A DNA stretch of 6,556 nt, from assembly GCA_031272655.1 (NCBI GenBank), contig JAISTJ010000191.1, positions 1 to 6,556 on the forward strand. The letters are read 5' to 3'. Shown here piece after piece: positions 1,463-6,185 of the stretch. Below the pieces are notes generated by a model, which was not told the origin of the DNA, made no database searches, and saw nothing but the letters and a program-made list of their open reading frames with translations. This DNA comes from Tannerella sp. GTDB lineage: Bacteria; Bacteroidota; Bacteroidia; Bacteroidales; Tannerellaceae. Position 1 is the stretch's first letter. Each line of letters starts with the position of its first letter. The position numbers were made by a program, and so were the translations under genes.

Positions 1463-1915
1463 TTATCCGGCGAAAGTTCCTGATATAAGGATAGATACGA
1501 CAAGTGCGAGGATGGCGTAAAGCTCAGGGAAGACAGCCATGACCATTGTGGCGGCGAAGACGTTGTGTCCTGCGGCTGTGGCTGCTACTCCTTCGGCGCA
1601 GACCTGACCCTGACGTATGGCAGAGAACAAACCCGCAAAACCCATCAACAGCCCGGCTCCGAAAATACCTGCCGCTGCTATCCACTTGATGTCGGGCGTA
1701 AGATACGACTGCACCATCATATAAGCTACAAAGCCGTATAAGCCTTGCGAACTCGGGAGGGCGCTAAGGGCGATATATGAGCCCATCTTTTCGGGAGCTT
1801 TTTTCATCGCTCCTATCACTGTGTTTCCGCAGATAGTCAGGCCATAAGCGCTGCCTATTCCGCTCAATCCTACCATGCAGGCCACGCCTACATAAGCTAA
1901 TACTATTGGTTCCAT
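1463..1915 (-). CDS. ntpK: V-type ATPase proteolipid subunit K (rotor ring)
   Basis: This 150-residue membrane protein builds the rotor ring that carries ions across the membrane in the V-type ATPase. It is a duplicated hairpin of four membrane helices, roughly 4-27, 46-68, 77-99 and 117-146. The first hairpin carries SALPSSQGLYGF (51-62); the second carries AIRQGQV (99-105) and VFPELYAILAL (128-138), with the ion-binding carboxylate Glu131. Leu53, Ser56, Gln57, Gln102 and Glu131 sit at a constant offset of eight from the Na+ ligands recalled for E. hirae NtpK (Leu61, Thr64, Gln65, Gln110, Glu139), so Na+ coupling is plausible. The length is normal for a two-hairpin subunit. The gene starts 18 bp after ntpI behind an A-rich leader, and its TAA touches the ATG of the dehydrogenase gene. 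Family assignment is firm; ion specificity is inferred. Confidence 0.95.
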   Translation of the reverse strand: MEPIVLAYVGVACMVGLSGIGSAYGLTICGNTVIGAMKKAPEKMGSYIALSALPSSQGLYGFVAYMMVQSYLTPDIKWIAAAGIFGAGLLMGFAGLFSAIRQGQVCAEGVAATAAGHNVFAATMVMAVFPELYAILALVVSILISGTFAG

Positions 1916-1933: not shown

Positions 1934-3868
1934 TTAATTCTTAATTCTAAAAGGTTGATAATCAAGTCCTCCGCCTTCAAATTCGGAGTTCTTATAGTAT
2001 TCCACATAGATAAGCCTCAACGGATGAACGAGGGAGCTGATAAGGCTGAGGCCGATATTGAGCGCGTGCCCGATAATGAGAATCAGCAGCATCGGCAACC
2101 AGCGGATAAACGGGTTCATCGAGGCGGTCATATCTATCGCCATAGAGTTGAACACACCGCCGAGCAGAGCGCCGGTAAGGCCGATCGCATAGAGGCGGAT
2201 ATACGACAGGACATCGCCTACAAGCCCGGAAACTGTGTTATAAGTATTCCAGATGCCTGCTCCGAAGTTGAGGAAAATATTCCTGCCGGGCATATTGTAC
2301 AGCAACGCAACGGCTCCGCTAAGCCCTGCTATCGCGTACATGATATATTTTAACGTATCGGGAATCGTGATTTTGAGCATCGGCAGCGCAAGGACGCATC
2401 CGAGCGAGAGTATCACGAAAACCCATGCAAAAGCAGCGAGGCTATACTTTAAACCCCTCTGTATCTTGATTTTATATGCAGCAATAATTTTGCCGTAAAC
2501 AACGTGGAAAAACCCTATCACGAGGGAAATGATCATCAGGTTGTCGCTTGTGATAAACCATTGTTTCACTTTTGCGAATGTGGGAAAATCCACGAGCGAG
2601 CAACCGAAAAATGAACCTGTTAACGTGCCTATTATCAGCGTAGTAATGCCAAAAAGGAGCACTAAAGTCATTATCGGTTTCATTGTCGCCGACATCTTCT
2701 GACGGAGCAGTAATGAGGTGATAATGAGCAGCAACCCGTAGCCTCCGTCGCCGAAGCACAAACCGAAAAACAGCATGAAAAACGGCGCAAACAGTGGTGT
2801 AGGGTCTATTTCGCTGTAGTTGGGCAGCGAATAAAGTTTGGTGATTGGCTCGAAAAGTTTGGTGAAACGGTTGTTTTTCAGCTTGATAGGGATGACGTCT
2901 TCGTCGGTTATCTCTGTTTTTTTGAAGAAACAACCGGCTTTTTCAAGCGCAGCTTCGGTATTAGCCGCTTCCGATGCGGGAATCCAGCCTTCGAGGAACA
3001 TAAGTTTGCTCTCTGCTTCCGTTTCGGTCTGTATCTCAACGCCTTTCCACATCAGCTCGTTCTCAATTTCCGTTTTGTATTTCTTGAGTGTATCAAGATG
3101 AGTTTCAGCTGTTTTGGCGATTTTATATTTGGTCGTTTGCTTTATTTCTATCTGATCTTCAATATCTTGTGATATTGTTTGAAAATCTTTCAGCGGCAAT
3201 TTGGCTGCATCTGCGTCTATTGCAAGGTATTCTCCCTGTTTTGTTATTGTAACAAAATATTTTATTGAGTTTATTTCATTGATAATAAGCGCATTATAAG
3301 TTGATTCCCATGTCTCGTCGTAGTTTTGGGCAGGGCATGTGTAGAAGCTTGTTTTGTAGCCTTCTTTGAGGAGTTTGGCGGTTGTCTCGTAGCTGAAATC
3401 GCCCCATGGGTCAAACAGGCTGCGCTCTTTTTCGAGGGTTACGAGGGCGGCTTCGGTTTTGGCGAGGGTCTCGCGCAGGTCTTCGGTTTTGGCGAGGATT
3501 GTTTCGGGAAGGGCGGCAGCTGTTTCAGGGATGACGGCGGCTGTTTCCGGAAAGGCGGCAGCCGTTTCGTCATTGCGAGGTACGAAGCAATCTATGTTAG
3601 TGGTGGCGGTGTTCTGGATTGCTTCACTGCGTTCGTAATGACGGGAAGAGGGGTCGTAAAGACGGGCAGGTGGTTCGAAATTGCTGAGATAGTCTATTTG
3701 TGCGGAAACTCGTTTCAATTCGTCTGTAAAGCGCTGAATATCACCATTTTCGGAGACAGGGCGTATGGTTTTTACGTGCACTACTCCGAGTGAGCGCAAG
3801 TGTTCGAGAAACGCCTTATACTCACGATGATAGACTAAAAAAGCGTATTTGTTCATCTTAACTATCAT
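1934..3868 (-). CDS. ntpI: V-type ATPase subunit I (stator/ion channel) carrying an in-frame repeat insertion
   Basis: This 644-residue protein is the membrane stator that forms the ion half-channels against the K ring. The N-terminal cytoplasmic half (1 to about 350) begins MIVKMNKYAFLVYHREY and contains the LFDPWGDFSYET block (151-162) and FLEGWIPASE (291-300). The membrane half (about 357-615) has seven or eight helices, with the FGDGGYG motif (372-378) and GDVLSYIRLYAIGL (551-564), in which Arg558 is the expected essential arginine facing the proteolipid glutamate. The end VHPLRLIYVEYYKN with EGGG (614-634) is also typical. Residues 76-100 are encoded by a dispersed inverted-repeat element, and 101-121 or so by a 21-bp tandem repeat, so the coiled-coil hairpin of the cytoplasmic domain is enlarged by some 40-50 residues; the rest looks intact. 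The start overlaps the ntpD stop (ATGA). Met5 is an alternative start, but the upstream ATG fits family members and the coupling. Confidence 0.94.
   Translation of the reverse strand: MIVKMNKYAFLVYHREYKAFLEHLRSLGVVHVKTIRPVSENGDIQRFTDELKRVSAQIDYLSNFEPPARLYDPSSRHYERSEAIQNTATTNIDCFVPRNDETAAAFPETAAVIPETAAALPETILAKTEDLRETLAKTEAALVTLEKERSLFDPWGDFSYETTAKLLKEGYKTSFYTCPAQNYDETWESTYNALIINEINSIKYFVTITKQGEYLAIDADAAKLPLKDFQTISQDIEDQIEIKQTTKYKIAKTAETHLDTLKKYKTEIENELMWKGVEIQTETEAESKLMFLEGWIPASEAANTEAALEKAGCFFKKTEITDEDVIPIKLKNNRFTKLFEPITKLYSLPNYSEIDPTPLFAPFFMLFFGLCFGDGGYGLLLIITSLLLRQKMSATMKPIMTLVLLFGITTLIIGTLTGSFFGCSLVDFPTFAKVKQWFITSDNLMIISLVIGFFHVVYGKIIAAYKIKIQRGLKYSLAAFAWVFVILSLGCVLALPMLKITIPDTLKYIMYAIAGLSGAVALLYNMPGRNIFLNFGAGIWNTYNTVSGLVGDVLSYIRLYAIGLTGALLGGVFNSMAIDMTASMNPFIRWLPMLLILIIGHALNIGLSLISSLVHPLRLIYVEYYKNSEFEGGGLDYQPFRIKN
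3451..3498 (-). repeat. 17-bp direct repeat, 30 bp apart, within ntpI
   Basis: CTTCGGTTTTGGCGAGG occurs at 3451-3467 and again, identical, at 3481-3497. On the coding strand the two copies encode the repeated peptide LAKTE (residues 125-129 and 135-139), inside a helix-forming stretch that leads into the conserved LFDPWGDF block. The repeat looks like a local duplication that lengthened the coiled coil next to the tandem repeat and the inverted-repeat insertion. Confidence 0.7.
3501..3563 (-). repeat. 21-bp tandem repeat (3 units) encoding PETAA heptapeptides in ntpI
   Basis: Three adjacent 21-bp units start with GTTTC at 3501, 3522 and 3543. A fourth start at 3564 (GTTTC) runs straight into the inverted-repeat element. 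On the coding strand they give TAAAFPE, TAAVIPE and TAAALPE. Period 21 keeps the frame, so copy number can change without breaking the ATPase subunit. The alanine/proline/glutamate composition suggests a flexible linker rather than a folded domain. Confidence 0.8.
3568..3643 (-). repeat. Dispersed inverted-repeat element, copy 1, inside the ntpI coding region
   Basis: A left arm at 3568-3594 (CGTCATTGCGAGGTACGAAG...) and a right arm at about 3614-3643 (...TTCGTAATGACG) are imperfect inverted repeats around a 20-bp loop. Read on the coding strand, the 76 bp contribute residues 76-100 of subunit I: RHYERSEAIQ from one arm and DCFVPRNDE from the other. The same element occurs between genes at 6099-6185. 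The arms differ from each other (one has GAGGYACGAAGC, the other GAACGnAnTGAAGC), which gives the element a polarity; in both copies the same arm comes first when read along the transcribed strand of the neighbouring gene. Peptides of the RHYERSEAIQ type are widely seen as translations of such repeats. No clear target-site duplication is visible. It is probably a non-autonomous MITE- or REP-like element. Confidence 0.85.
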
Positions 3869-4479
3869 GCTGCTTCCTCCTCCTTTTCTGCCCTGCGTTC
3901 CTGATTGGCGCGCATAATTTTTTGCGATGATTTGGCAAGGCTTTCCTCATCTTCCATAAATCGTTTTATCTTCAAAATAGCCTCTTTGTAGCCGGGAATT
4001 TGCACTTTTTCAAAGAGGTTGAGTTTTTGTGTCGTTTTTCGGCGGGCACGTTCCAACATGCTGAGTTTCAGCCCCGTAAACTCTGCCTCGATGCCTGTGG
4101 ATGCAAGTTTTTTCAACACATCAATGCCATCGTAAAACCATGAAGGGTTGCCGAAGAGGCTGAAGGGTTTCACGTCGAACGCGATGTCATCAAGCACGGG
4201 CGCCACAACGCCGGCAATCTTGCGGGTAGAGAGCGCCACGTTGCGCACGCTGATGAGAGATGGGTCAAACTCTGTCCACAGCGCCGTCATGTATTCGTAG
4301 CTGCGGATGTCGCGTTCAAGTTTTTCTTCAAGCGCCGTCATCTCGTCGCGCGTCCGTTTTACTTCGAGGCGCAGTGCATTTTCCTTGCTTTTAATCGTCG
4401 GCAAAGCCCTCTCGCGTATCTTCAGTTGCTTTTCAAGCCCCTGCAGCGAGGTTTTGTTATATTGAAAACGTATAGCCAT
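3865..4479 (-). CDS. ntpD: V-type ATPase subunit D (central rotor stalk)
   Basis: This 204-residue cytoplasmic protein is the central shaft that transmits rotation between the A/B catalytic head and the proteolipid ring. It begins MAIRFQYNKTSLQGLEKQL and has the classic layout of a long N-terminal helix (about 10-66), a middle globular part (about 70-120, with VKPFSLFGNPSWFYDG) and a long C-terminal helix (about 122-198) containing LNLFEKVQIPGYKEAI (153-168). The two helices would form the antiparallel coiled coil of the shaft; the last residues are charged (EKEEEAA). Length and start agree with Bacteroidota homologues. It is the first gene of this operon: its stop overlaps the ntpI start by four bases, and upstream lies a divergent promoter region rather than the usual ntpB gene. 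A promoter-like -7 box ends only 7 bp before the ATG, implying a very short leader. Confidence 0.95.
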   Translation of the reverse strand: MAIRFQYNKTSLQGLEKQLKIRERALPTIKSKENALRLEVKRTRDEMTALEEKLERDIRSYEYMTALWTEFDPSLISVRNVALSTRKIAGVVAPVLDDIAFDVKPFSLFGNPSWFYDGIDVLKKLASTGIEAEFTGLKLSMLERARRKTTQKLNLFEKVQIPGYKEAILKIKRFMEDEESLAKSSQKIMRANQERRAEKEEEAA

Positions 4480-4579: not shown

Positions 4580-6010
4580 ATGAAATTATTGTTTGAAATA
4601 AGCAGAAAAGGGCACAAAAGCGCGTTGATTCCGGAGGCGGATACGCCTGTGTATGAACTGCCTGAGGCTTTTAAACGGAGTACGCCGGTGAGGTTGCCGG
4701 AGTTGTCGGAAACGGAAATAAGCCGGCATTACACAAAATTGATGAAACGCACATTCGGTGTGAACGACGGTTTTTATCCGCTCGGCTCGTGCACGATGAA
4801 GTATAACCCGCGTATCAACGAAGATATGGCGTCGTTACCCGGTTTCAAAGATCTTCATCCGTTACAGCCGGAGCATACCGTTCAGGGCGCTCTTGAGGTT
4901 TTTCACGAGACAGGGAAGGCGCTGTGCGAGATAGCCGGTATGGACGCTTTTACATTTCAGCCGGCGGCAGGGGCGCATGGCGAGTTTGCAGGCGTGATGC
5001 TGATAAAGGCTTATCACGAAGCGCGCGGCGACTTGCAGCGGACAAAGATTATCGTACCCGACGCGGCTCACGGCACAAACCCCGCATCGGCGACAATGGC
5101 AGGCTTCACGGTTGTCAATATCCCGTCTAATGCCGCCGGATGCGTTGATGTGGACAAACTGCGCGAGGCAGTCGGAAGCGACACCGCCGGATTGATGCTT
5201 ACAAACCCCAATACGCTCGGTTTATTTGATCCTAATATATTGGAAATCACTAAGATAGTGCATGAGGCCGGCGGACTTAACTATTACGACGGCGCAAATC
5301 TGAACGCCATTATGGGCATCACGCGACCCGGCGATATGGGCTTTGATGTTATCCATATCAATCTTCACAAAACTTTTTCAACTCCTCACGGTGGGGGCGG
5401 TCCGGGCGCCGGTCCGGTCGGATGCAAATCTTTCCTTGCCGATTATTTGCCTGTGTATCAGGTAGTTAATGGCGGCTATGGTTTCCGGTTTGATAATCCT
5501 GCCGCTTCAATAGGAAGTACGAAAGCTTTTTATGGTCATTTCTTAGTGATAGTCAGGGCTTTAACTTATATAAAAACACTTGGGGCAGAAGGCATTCGTA
5601 ATGTTGCTGTTCATGCGGTTTTGAATGCCAATTATATGCGGAATAAACTGTCTGAATATTACGATGTTGCGTACGACAGGCTTTGTATGCACGAGTTTGT
5701 GCTGACGCTTCAGGGCATTAAGGATAAGTACGGTGTTTCGGCTCTCGATGTGGCTAAGGAGTTGTTAGATAATGGAATACATCCGCCTACGATGTACTTC
5801 CCGTTGATAGTGCATGAGGCGCTGATGATTGAGCCTACCGAGACGGAATCAAAAGAAACGATGGATGAGGCGATAGCTGTTTTCAAAAAGATTTTTGAGT
5901 TGATACTTTCCGACGCCGGAAGCCTGCACAGTATGCCGCTTTCTACGCCCGTCCGCAGGCTCGATGAGGTAGGCGCCGCGCGGAATCCGAGATTGAGGTT
6001 TGGGGTTTGA
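4580..6010 (+). CDS. gcvPB: Glycine dehydrogenase (decarboxylating) subunit 2, PLP-binding
   Basis: This 476-residue cytoplasmic enzyme subunit belongs to the glycine cleavage system. With subunit 1 (GcvPA) it decarboxylates glycine and loads the aminomethyl group on lipoyl-GcvH. Visible blocks are YPLGSCTMKYNP (66-77), FQPAAGAHGEF (126-136), TNPNTLGLFD (208-217), and the PLP site HINLHKTFSTPHGGGG (259-274) with the Schiff-base lysine at Lys264. The length is normal for a stand-alone subunit 2. I chose the ATG at 4580: it gives the family start MKLLFEISRKG and lies downstream of the promoter box, whereas the TTG at 4553 does not. GcvPA, GcvT and GcvH are not adjacent, so the partner genes must lie elsewhere. 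The C-terminus ends ARNPRLRFGV; its last codons and stop are written in the G/T-rich repeat that follows, so the original tail may have been replaced. Confidence 0.96.
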   Translation: MKLLFEISRKGHKSALIPEADTPVYELPEAFKRSTPVRLPELSETEISRHYTKLMKRTFGVNDGFYPLGSCTMKYNPRINEDMASLPGFKDLHPLQPEHTVQGALEVFHETGKALCEIAGMDAFTFQPAAGAHGEFAGVMLIKAYHEARGDLQRTKIIVPDAAHGTNPASATMAGFTVVNIPSNAAGCVDVDKLREAVGSDTAGLMLTNPNTLGLFDPNILEITKIVHEAGGLNYYDGANLNAIMGITRPGDMGFDVIHINLHKTFSTPHGGGGPGAGPVGCKSFLADYLPVYQVVNGGYGFRFDNPAASIGSTKAFYGHFLVIVRALTYIKTLGAEGIRNVAVHAVLNANYMRNKLSEYYDVAYDRLCMHEFVLTLQGIKDKYGVSALDVAKELLDNGIHPPTMYFPLIVHEALMIEPTETESKETMDEAIAVFKKIFELILSDAGSLHSMPLSTPVRRLDEVGAARNPRLRFGV

Positions 6011-6090
6011 TGTTTCGGGGTTTTGGGGTTTGAGTTTAATGTTTCGGGTTGGAGGTTTGAGGTTTTGGGGTTTCAGGTTTGAGGTTTCAT
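5993..6090 (+). repeat. Degenerate G/T-rich repeat after gcvPB
   Basis: About 100 bp consist of variants of GGTTTGAGGTTT and GTTTCGGGG. A longer period of about 28-29 bp is visible: GTTTGATGTTTCGGGG near 6006 and GTTTAATGTTTCGGG near 6034. G runs at 6002-6005, 6017-6020, 6025-6028, 6046-6048 and 6067-6070 could allow a weak G-quadruplex on the plus strand, but several loops are long. The repeat starts inside the last codons of gcvPB. It has no coding signal of its own. Confidence 0.7.
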
Positions 6091-6098
6091 GTATAAAT

Positions 6099-6185
6099 CC
6101 GTCATTGCGAACGAATGTGAAGCAATCCAGTCAATTAAACCTTTTATACCAATTTTCTGGATTGCTTCGTGCCTCGCAATGACGG
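6099..6185 (+). repeat. Dispersed inverted-repeat element, copy 2, intergenic
   Basis: The left arm CCGTCATTGCGAACGAATGT... (6099-6130) and the right arm CTGGATTGCTTC...CGCAATGACGG (6157-6185) are inverted repeats of about 30 bp around a 26-bp A/T-rich loop. The arms match those of the element inside ntpI: the right arm here differs from that copy's left arm at only two positions over about 27, after reverse-complementing. The loops share nothing. In RNA this would fold into a long hairpin between the convergent gcvPB and nuclease-like genes, so it could also protect or end transcripts, but no T run follows. Confidence 0.87.

Follow-up and report, generated by a model that had tools for sequence, protein, structure and literature searches.

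The V-type ATP synthase subunit I gene, ntpI, of a Tannerella sp. (order Bacteroidales) very probably holds, in frame, one copy of a CGTC-ended palindromic repeat that is dispersed in the genome, is similar to the Rickettsia palindromic element (RPE) RPE-4 and has likely spread as selfish DNA; translation of the copy is predicted to add a disordered stretch to an NtpI linker that varies in length. The copy lies at 3568-3643 of the stretch of DNA analyzed here (the window), which is one whole contig of 6,556 nucleotides (JAISTJ010000191.1; contig C154 of genome G000). The host genome G000 (GCA_031272655.1) is a 2.18 Mb assembly of 225 contigs and is 72.5% complete. The gene and the repeat-related features of the window are as follows.

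1934..3868, minus strand: ntpI, V-type ATP synthase subunit I, 644 residues, host of the insert (open reading frame, ORF, and profile search).
3568..3643, minus strand: palindromic repeat copy with two unlike arms, in frame as NtpI residues 76-100 (repeat comparison, frames and folding).
3568..3592, plus strand: type B arm, CGTCATTGCGAGGTACGAAGCAATC; reads DCFVPRND on the coding strand (inverted-repeat match, translation).
3614..3643, minus strand: type A arm, CGTCATTACGAACGCAGTGAAGCAATCCAG on the coding strand; reads RHYERSEAIQ (inverted-repeat match, translation).
3644..3682, minus strand: the arm end iterated twice in degenerate 21-nt form, a probable continuation of the insert, reading approximately NFEPPA-RLYDPSS (spacing of 21, other copies alike; boundary inferred).
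3500..3567, minus strand: 21-nt tandem repeat adjoining the element, reading ETAAAFP/ETAAVIP/ETAAALP; possibly derived from the element (direct repeat).
6099..6185, no strand assigned: second copy, intergenic, with an A+T-rich spacer as in several other intergenic copies (inverted repeats, folding).

The two copies are built from an identical pair of arm types. The arm at 3568-3592 is 96% complementary to 6160-6184, and the arm segment at 3614-3627 is 100% complementary to 6117-6130, both within the second copy. When compared with shuffled sequences, 3568-3643 folds with a z score of -6.1 for the plus strand and of -4.1 for the coding strand, where one shuffle in 200 did as well, and the intergenic copy with a z score of -8.5. 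The ntpI frame (3868-1934, minus strand) is open across both arms, and RHYERSEAIQNTATTNIDCFVPRND constitutes residues 76-100. Arm complementarity, fold and open frame thus bear out an earlier note on this DNA, which had described a palindromic repeat in frame in ntpI with a second copy at 6099-6185. Iterations of the arm end at 21-nt spacing (TTCGTAATGACGGGAAGAGGG and GTCGTAAAGACGGGCAGGTGG) continue beyond 3643, and repeat-derived DNA probably extends to about 3682; the same feature is present at other copies, and the repeat-derived part of NtpI likely begins near residue 63. The element is also dispersed, as that note had proposed: the core 11-mer CGTCATTGCGA has 269 exact matches in the host genome as compared with two for a reversed control, and a 141-base query gave 86 matches with expectation values up to 1, with 40 of 181 first-look candidates scored.

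Of 3,660 NtpI homologues found, 120 were listed; among these the repeat peptide occurs in a single protein, P0001, from the window's own lineage, and was not found in the remaining 119. P0001 differs from the window NtpI at two of 644 residues (252 and 598) with the insert unchanged, and the nearest other relative, P0002 (71% identical), does not have the repeat peptide. P0001 is known from an 11,288-base contig, longer than that of the window, and is thus a separately assembled allele, so that an assembly error is unlikely. Of the two circumstances that the earlier note had named as damaging to its account, the same peptide in unrelated homologues was not encountered among those listed, and an assembly error is improbable.

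In the 109 of the 119 listed relatives where both of two anchors were found, the NtpI linker between them has a median of 99 residues and ranges from 83 to 134; the window protein has 123, and one of the 109 is as long. Because of this variation the insert cannot be given precise ends, and the alignment with relatives that the note had recommended does not delimit residues of about 74-122 as a clean insertion. An AlphaFold model, which is poor (predicted template modelling score, pTM, 0.37), has helices at 42-62 and 116-150 with residues 74-117 between them, mostly at a predicted local distance difference test score (pLDDT) below 50. This low-confidence model is consistent with the suggestion that the insert sits between two helices of the coiled-coil hairpin. 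Positions that do not vary among 53 aligned sequences are retained, which supports the first reading that the downstream family motifs stay in frame. The NF004429 model (V-type ATP synthase subunit I) aligns over residues 1-642 with 255 bits, below its own cut-off of 799, PF01496 is passed (83.6 versus a cut-off of 30.7), and a fold search of the PDB with the NtpI model confirmed the subunit a/I family and nothing further.

NtpI is no special case but one of 33 genes of the host genome in which repeat copies lie in open, Pfam-supported frames, according to a search for further in-gene copies that the same note had recommended. Within the own-genome loci that were fetched there are 80 clusters of units, 35 of which are open for at least 45 residues on each side, in 33 ORFs. 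Four ORFs were dropped (L021, L081 and L104, with no Pfam hit, and L007, which was not submitted to Pfam) and four were added from a coordinate-based pass (ABC2, L095; ribD, L099; purL, L101; DUF3316, L108), giving the 33 genes. Homology is two-sided in 23: the named genes ntpI, atpG, aroC, leuC, ddl, cdsA, murF, prmC, ribD, purL and rimM; genes for a radical SAM protein, two GH106 enzymes, one GH3 enzyme, a C26 peptidase, a PPDK_N protein and a cobalamin adenosyltransferase; and those for a ferredoxin-type protein, an Lnb protein, a FAD-dependent protein, a VTC protein and an ABC-2 permease. The other ten, where homology is weak or one-sided, encode a third GH106 enzyme, an A2M protein, an outer membrane protein, a KASIII-like protein, an SIS protein, a transglutaminase, a zinc alcohol dehydrogenase, a GT2 protein, a sulfatase and a DUF3316 protein. 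The 23/10 division, like the strict count of 13 clusters used below, is our own judgement from profile and alignment results; for pduO and the FAD-dependent protein a second Pfam stretch is reported without its position, and the model that spans ntpI scores under its own cut-off. The PPDK_N protein (1077 residues; G000:C32, L093:2702-5932) has repeat units at three separate places.

Pfam or NCBIfam alignments cross or flank the insert in aroC, leuC, atpG, cdsA, murF, prmC, ribD, purL, ddl, rimM and others. When ten proteins were compared with curated NCBI equivalog or subfamily models, eight passed a cut-off (those of aroC, leuC, atpG, ddl, prmC, ribD, purL and murF), and NtpI and CdsA did not. 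AtpG has 117 residues between anchors, compared with a median of 53 and a maximum of 86 in 105 relatives, and Ddl has 122, compared with a median of 66 and a maximum of 98 in 116 relatives. The AlphaFold model of AtpG has pLDDT mostly above 90, dropping to about 43 over the insert (73-132), with a second low loop near 263-279. Two other Ddl proteins, P0335 and P0329, contain unlike repeat-like peptides (SSPFEGGQGDVI units and FQLSTFNFQLI) at the loop that holds the Ddl insert described here, as if several repeat families were tolerated at this one site.

These findings bear on the word domesticated, which the earlier note had applied to the ntpI copy; it implies a function and is not supported. 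If the repeat peptide were useful in NtpI, for instance in adjusting the stator coiled coil or in contacting a partner, its sequence would be under selection, and the unchanged insert in P0001 and the mechanically interesting place of the linker (in the poor model) are in keeping with this. However, the same DNA lies in 33 genes that are unrelated to one another and is read there in several of its frames, which counts against a specific function, and the 119 other listed NtpI homologues have no insert. We regard such a role as unlikely, and tolerated, frame-filtered selfish DNA fits better.

The in-gene copies bear marks of the reading frame. Same-strand neighboring units no more than 60 nt apart are spaced by a multiple of three in 31 of 31 cases within genes and in 14 of 30 outside them (p = 7e-7). 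The selection for open frames does not force this spacing, since a forward unit can be read in two or three frames and divisibility by three is required of the whole insert alone. By frame, the 77 in-gene units comprise 38 RND, 24 RHC, 7 VIA, 6 SLR and 2 AMT. Two reverse frames are stop-free, and RND is used in 21 genes as compared with two for the more hydrophobic AMT (p = 3e-5), a choice that is not forced by open-frame selection.

The codon-multiple spacing and the RND preference argue for real translation and against removal of the insert at the RNA or translation level, whether by splicing or by bypassing of the hairpin, such that the protein never has it; they also suggest that the tandem arrays grew in place. 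The coding-strand RNA does still form a hairpin, but this is weaker than that of the intergenic copy (-19.9 versus -38.3 kcal/mol), and neither the spacing (31/31) nor the RND frame (21 of 23 genes) would be needed in a segment that is skipped. Skipping is therefore highly improbable, and a translated, frame-filtered insert remains the preferred explanation.

Congeners with a similar repeat load serve as natural controls. Core counts span 0 to 292 across 36 congeners: six have 292, 259, 249, 166, 115 and 100, the other 30 have 0 to 64, and 24 other genomes of the same order have 0 to 12. The repeat variants are lineage-specific: CGTCATTGCGAACG, the GAACG form, is present in G000 and has 71 occurrences in congener G022, two in G006 and none in G005. 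For the host genome we took the first 100 of the 269 core matches in contig order, which form 56 clusters, and for each congener the first 30 listed places of the matched 11-base pattern (of 292 in G022, 249 in G006 and 259 in G005), forming 16, 15 and 16 clusters respectively. Of the 56 host clusters, 24 are in an open frame and 22 are in an ORF with Pfam support; a strict two-sided rule leaves 13. The three congeners have 3, 1 and 2 open frames, and among the 47 clusters sampled no repeat-bearing ORF has a Pfam hit above cut-off. In-gene clusters are thus 22 of 56 (strict, 13 of 56) versus 0 of 47, with p = 2e-7 (strict, 2e-4). A first control in G022 with a 14-base pattern gave 21 clusters and four open frames with no Pfam hit. 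If the sample is typical, by extrapolation some fifty genes of the host genome may be affected.

Among named genomes a 27-base pattern occurs at no fewer than 80 loci, with 61 clusters having 200 nt on both sides; six of the 61 are open and one, among the loci listed, is in a recognizable gene. This is an in-frame copy in a BcrAD_BadFG/DUF2229 protein of Th196P3bin138, another Bacteroidales bin (L178:3608-7999). Repeat-bearing Tannerella sp. records are present among the named genomes, for example isolate Gx481_bin112, and several of the closest NtpI relatives with organism names are also Tannerella sp. We take bins such as Gx481_bin112 to be of termite-gut origin.

The congener comparison also speaks to an artefact of assembly or binning, in which repeat reads were misjoined inside genes of a metagenome-assembled genome. 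The assembly is incomplete and fragmented (72.5%, 225 contigs), and repeats do break assemblies. However, the three congeners have similar copy numbers and fragmented assemblies too, yet give 0 of 47; the frame is preserved in gene after gene; and the second ntpI allele, P0001, has the same insert on a longer contig, although it may come from the same sample. There is accordingly very little chance that the inserts are misjoined reads, as opposed to tolerated in-frame copies.

Several observations weigh against this interpretation or reduce its force. Homology is one-sided or weak for 10 of the 33 genes. The NtpI model is poor, and low pLDDT over the insert also reflects missing alignment depth. 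The codon-multiple spacing is partly helped, though not forced, by open-frame selection, and the finding of none of the 77 units in the TGA-bearing reverse frame is forced by that selection and is no evidence. Because the search was for open frames, out-of-frame copies within genes may be under-counted, and the check on this was by eye only (26 cases, two in detail). With matched longer patterns the excess in the host genome is weak: 2 of 9 clusters versus 1 of 61 among the other named genomes (p = 0.04), and 3 of 18 versus 0 of 21 in G022 (p = 0.09). Finally, a search for the Y1 family linked no transposase to the repeat: the host genome, which is 72.5% complete, has a single Y1_Tnp fragment (C53:778-1044), with no unit in C53:500-1199 and the nearest listed unit at 2034, about 1 kb away.

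The check by eye covered the 48 clusters outside the 33 genes, where ORF pieces adjoin both sides in 26 strand cases. One gene is clearly truncated at a copy, at G000:C26:11266 (L091), and is followed by the apparent end of another gene. The truncated gene is presumably FabZ-like.

A RAYT or other Y1 transposase was considered as the mover of the repeat and rejected, since PF01797 (Y1 transposase) matches do not follow copy number and no unit lies in C53:500-1199 around the C53 fragment. Genomes with few copies often have some PF01797 matches; among six other high-copy congeners none was found in G006, G007, G016, G022 or G029, and G005 has one at 30.6 bits (cut-off 23).

The repeat has clear counterparts among known systems. 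The survey of CGTC-tagged repetitive extragenic palindromes (REPs) by Di Nocera et al. (2013; PMC3733652) describes units with CGTC at one end and a CCA-like tail, which form opposite-orientation dimers with spacers mostly of 20-100 bp; Bacteroidetes are among the host phyla, intragenic units occur in several species, and no dedicated transposase is reported there. The units described here similarly have CGTC at one end, an unpaired CCA-like tail, and form dimers. The consensus unit ends ...GCAATCCA(G), unpaired in the fold, and the ntpI type B arm reads ...GCAATCTA. Folded singly, both consensus unit types have a 5-bp stem and a loop of 10-12 bases (z scores of -0.4 and -0.7), whereas four CGTC families are given stems of 8-9 bp and loops of 4-5 bases in that survey (PMC3733652). 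Because of the 5-bp stem we have not filed the repeat in families CGTC-1 to CGTC-4. The survey equates two CGTC families with RPE-4 and RPE-6 of R. conorii, and the species for which it reports most intragenic units are R. conorii (CGTC) and O. terrae (GTAG), neither a Bacteroidetes species (PMC3733652).

The closest likeness is to the RPE-4 group. According to the R. japonica genome paper, inserts of RPE-4, RPE-6 and RPE-7 have an ATGAC motif, lie at the same sites of orthologues across Rickettsia, and are solvent-exposed (PMC3767692). Our repeat, like RPE-4/6/7 and the extended eRPE-4, is in frame in unrelated genes (here 33, 23 of them two-sided), and shares the motif: the arms end in AATGACG, and TCGCAATGACG, which every exact core match reads on the opposite strand, contains ATGAC. 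The inserts of the two proteins modelled here have low pLDDT, between confident elements in AtpG and, in a low-confidence model, in NtpI. Unlike RPE-4, our repeat is hosted by a Bacteroidales bacterium rather than an obligate intracellular alphaproteobacterium, and its arms iterate in codon-multiple tandem arrays. RPE-1, RPE-2 and RPE-3 (Ogata et al. 2000, 2002) are also found in frame in genes, nearly half of the 44 first-described elements being so placed according to two sources (PMC10969869, PMC3767692), but they are longer at about 150 bp (same sources), differ in sequence, and have almost no ATGAC, with 0.1 motifs per kb for RPE-1, -2, -3 and -5 together (PMC3767692). By analogy with these published features, the repeat appears to work like the Rickettsia RPE-4/CGTC repeats in a Bacteroidales lineage, in agreement with the likeness to in-frame Rickettsia elements that the first reading of the sequence had drawn; the likeness is drawn from published descriptions and the motif.

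We envisage that the repeat multiplied lineage by lineage, as the copy numbers would suggest. Each arm type is stop-free in four or five of the six frames, and an insertion of 3n bases can thus be read through. Copies are observed in the open frames of 33 genes, where tandem units hold a codon-multiple period. Cells in which an insertion breaks the frame or falls in a folded core would die out and take it with them, while copies in linkers or loops would survive, and the bias towards the less hydrophobic of the open frames would be the mark of this filter and of real translation. The arm ends would then multiply in place, mostly by 18, 21 or 24 bases per step, and the peptide would grow.

A broader proposal can be offered only tentatively, and we hold it to be somewhat doubtful: that the repeat is a proteome-wide maker of disordered loops in this Bacteroidales lineage, inserting in frame into core enzymes, the two kinds of rotary ATPase among them, with arm ends growing in codon-multiple steps, while sister species with equal copies keep their genes free. 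Something particular to the lineage, such as weaker selection, a different mobilizing enzyme or a different insertion target, would then enable DNA repeats to create new stretches of protein.

Rickettsia is the best-known setting of in-frame palindromes, and here they appear on a large scale in an unrelated phylum (atpG, aroC, leuC, murF, purL and others). A 2024 review calls it 'conceivable' that repeats shape proteins in other prokaryotes (PMC10969869). Among the open-licence literature searched we found no Bacteroidales report beyond the 2013 survey, which names Bacteroidetes as CGTC carriers (PMC3733652); the titles listed among the matches of a literature search with the core sequence itself were all on other subjects. 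With so many in-gene copies, and with the congeners as controls, two old questions can be put to the test: do such inserts simply survive a frame filter, and do repeats truly give rise to new parts of proteins?

The neighborhood of ntpI on the minus strand includes two further ATP synthase genes.

3865..4479, minus strand: ntpD, ATP synthase subunit D; overlaps the ntpI start (ORF and Pfam).
1463..1915, minus strand: ntpK, ATP synthase subunit C (ORF and Pfam).

The minus strand of the window also encodes an Fe-ADH_2-type dehydrogenase, and the plus strand a glycine dehydrogenase gene. An Rfam scan of the window gave no match at gathering thresholds. Degenerate GGTTTGAGG/GGTTTTGGGG repeats are present at 6004-6087, 3' of the glycine dehydrogenase gene and immediately before the intergenic repeat copy.

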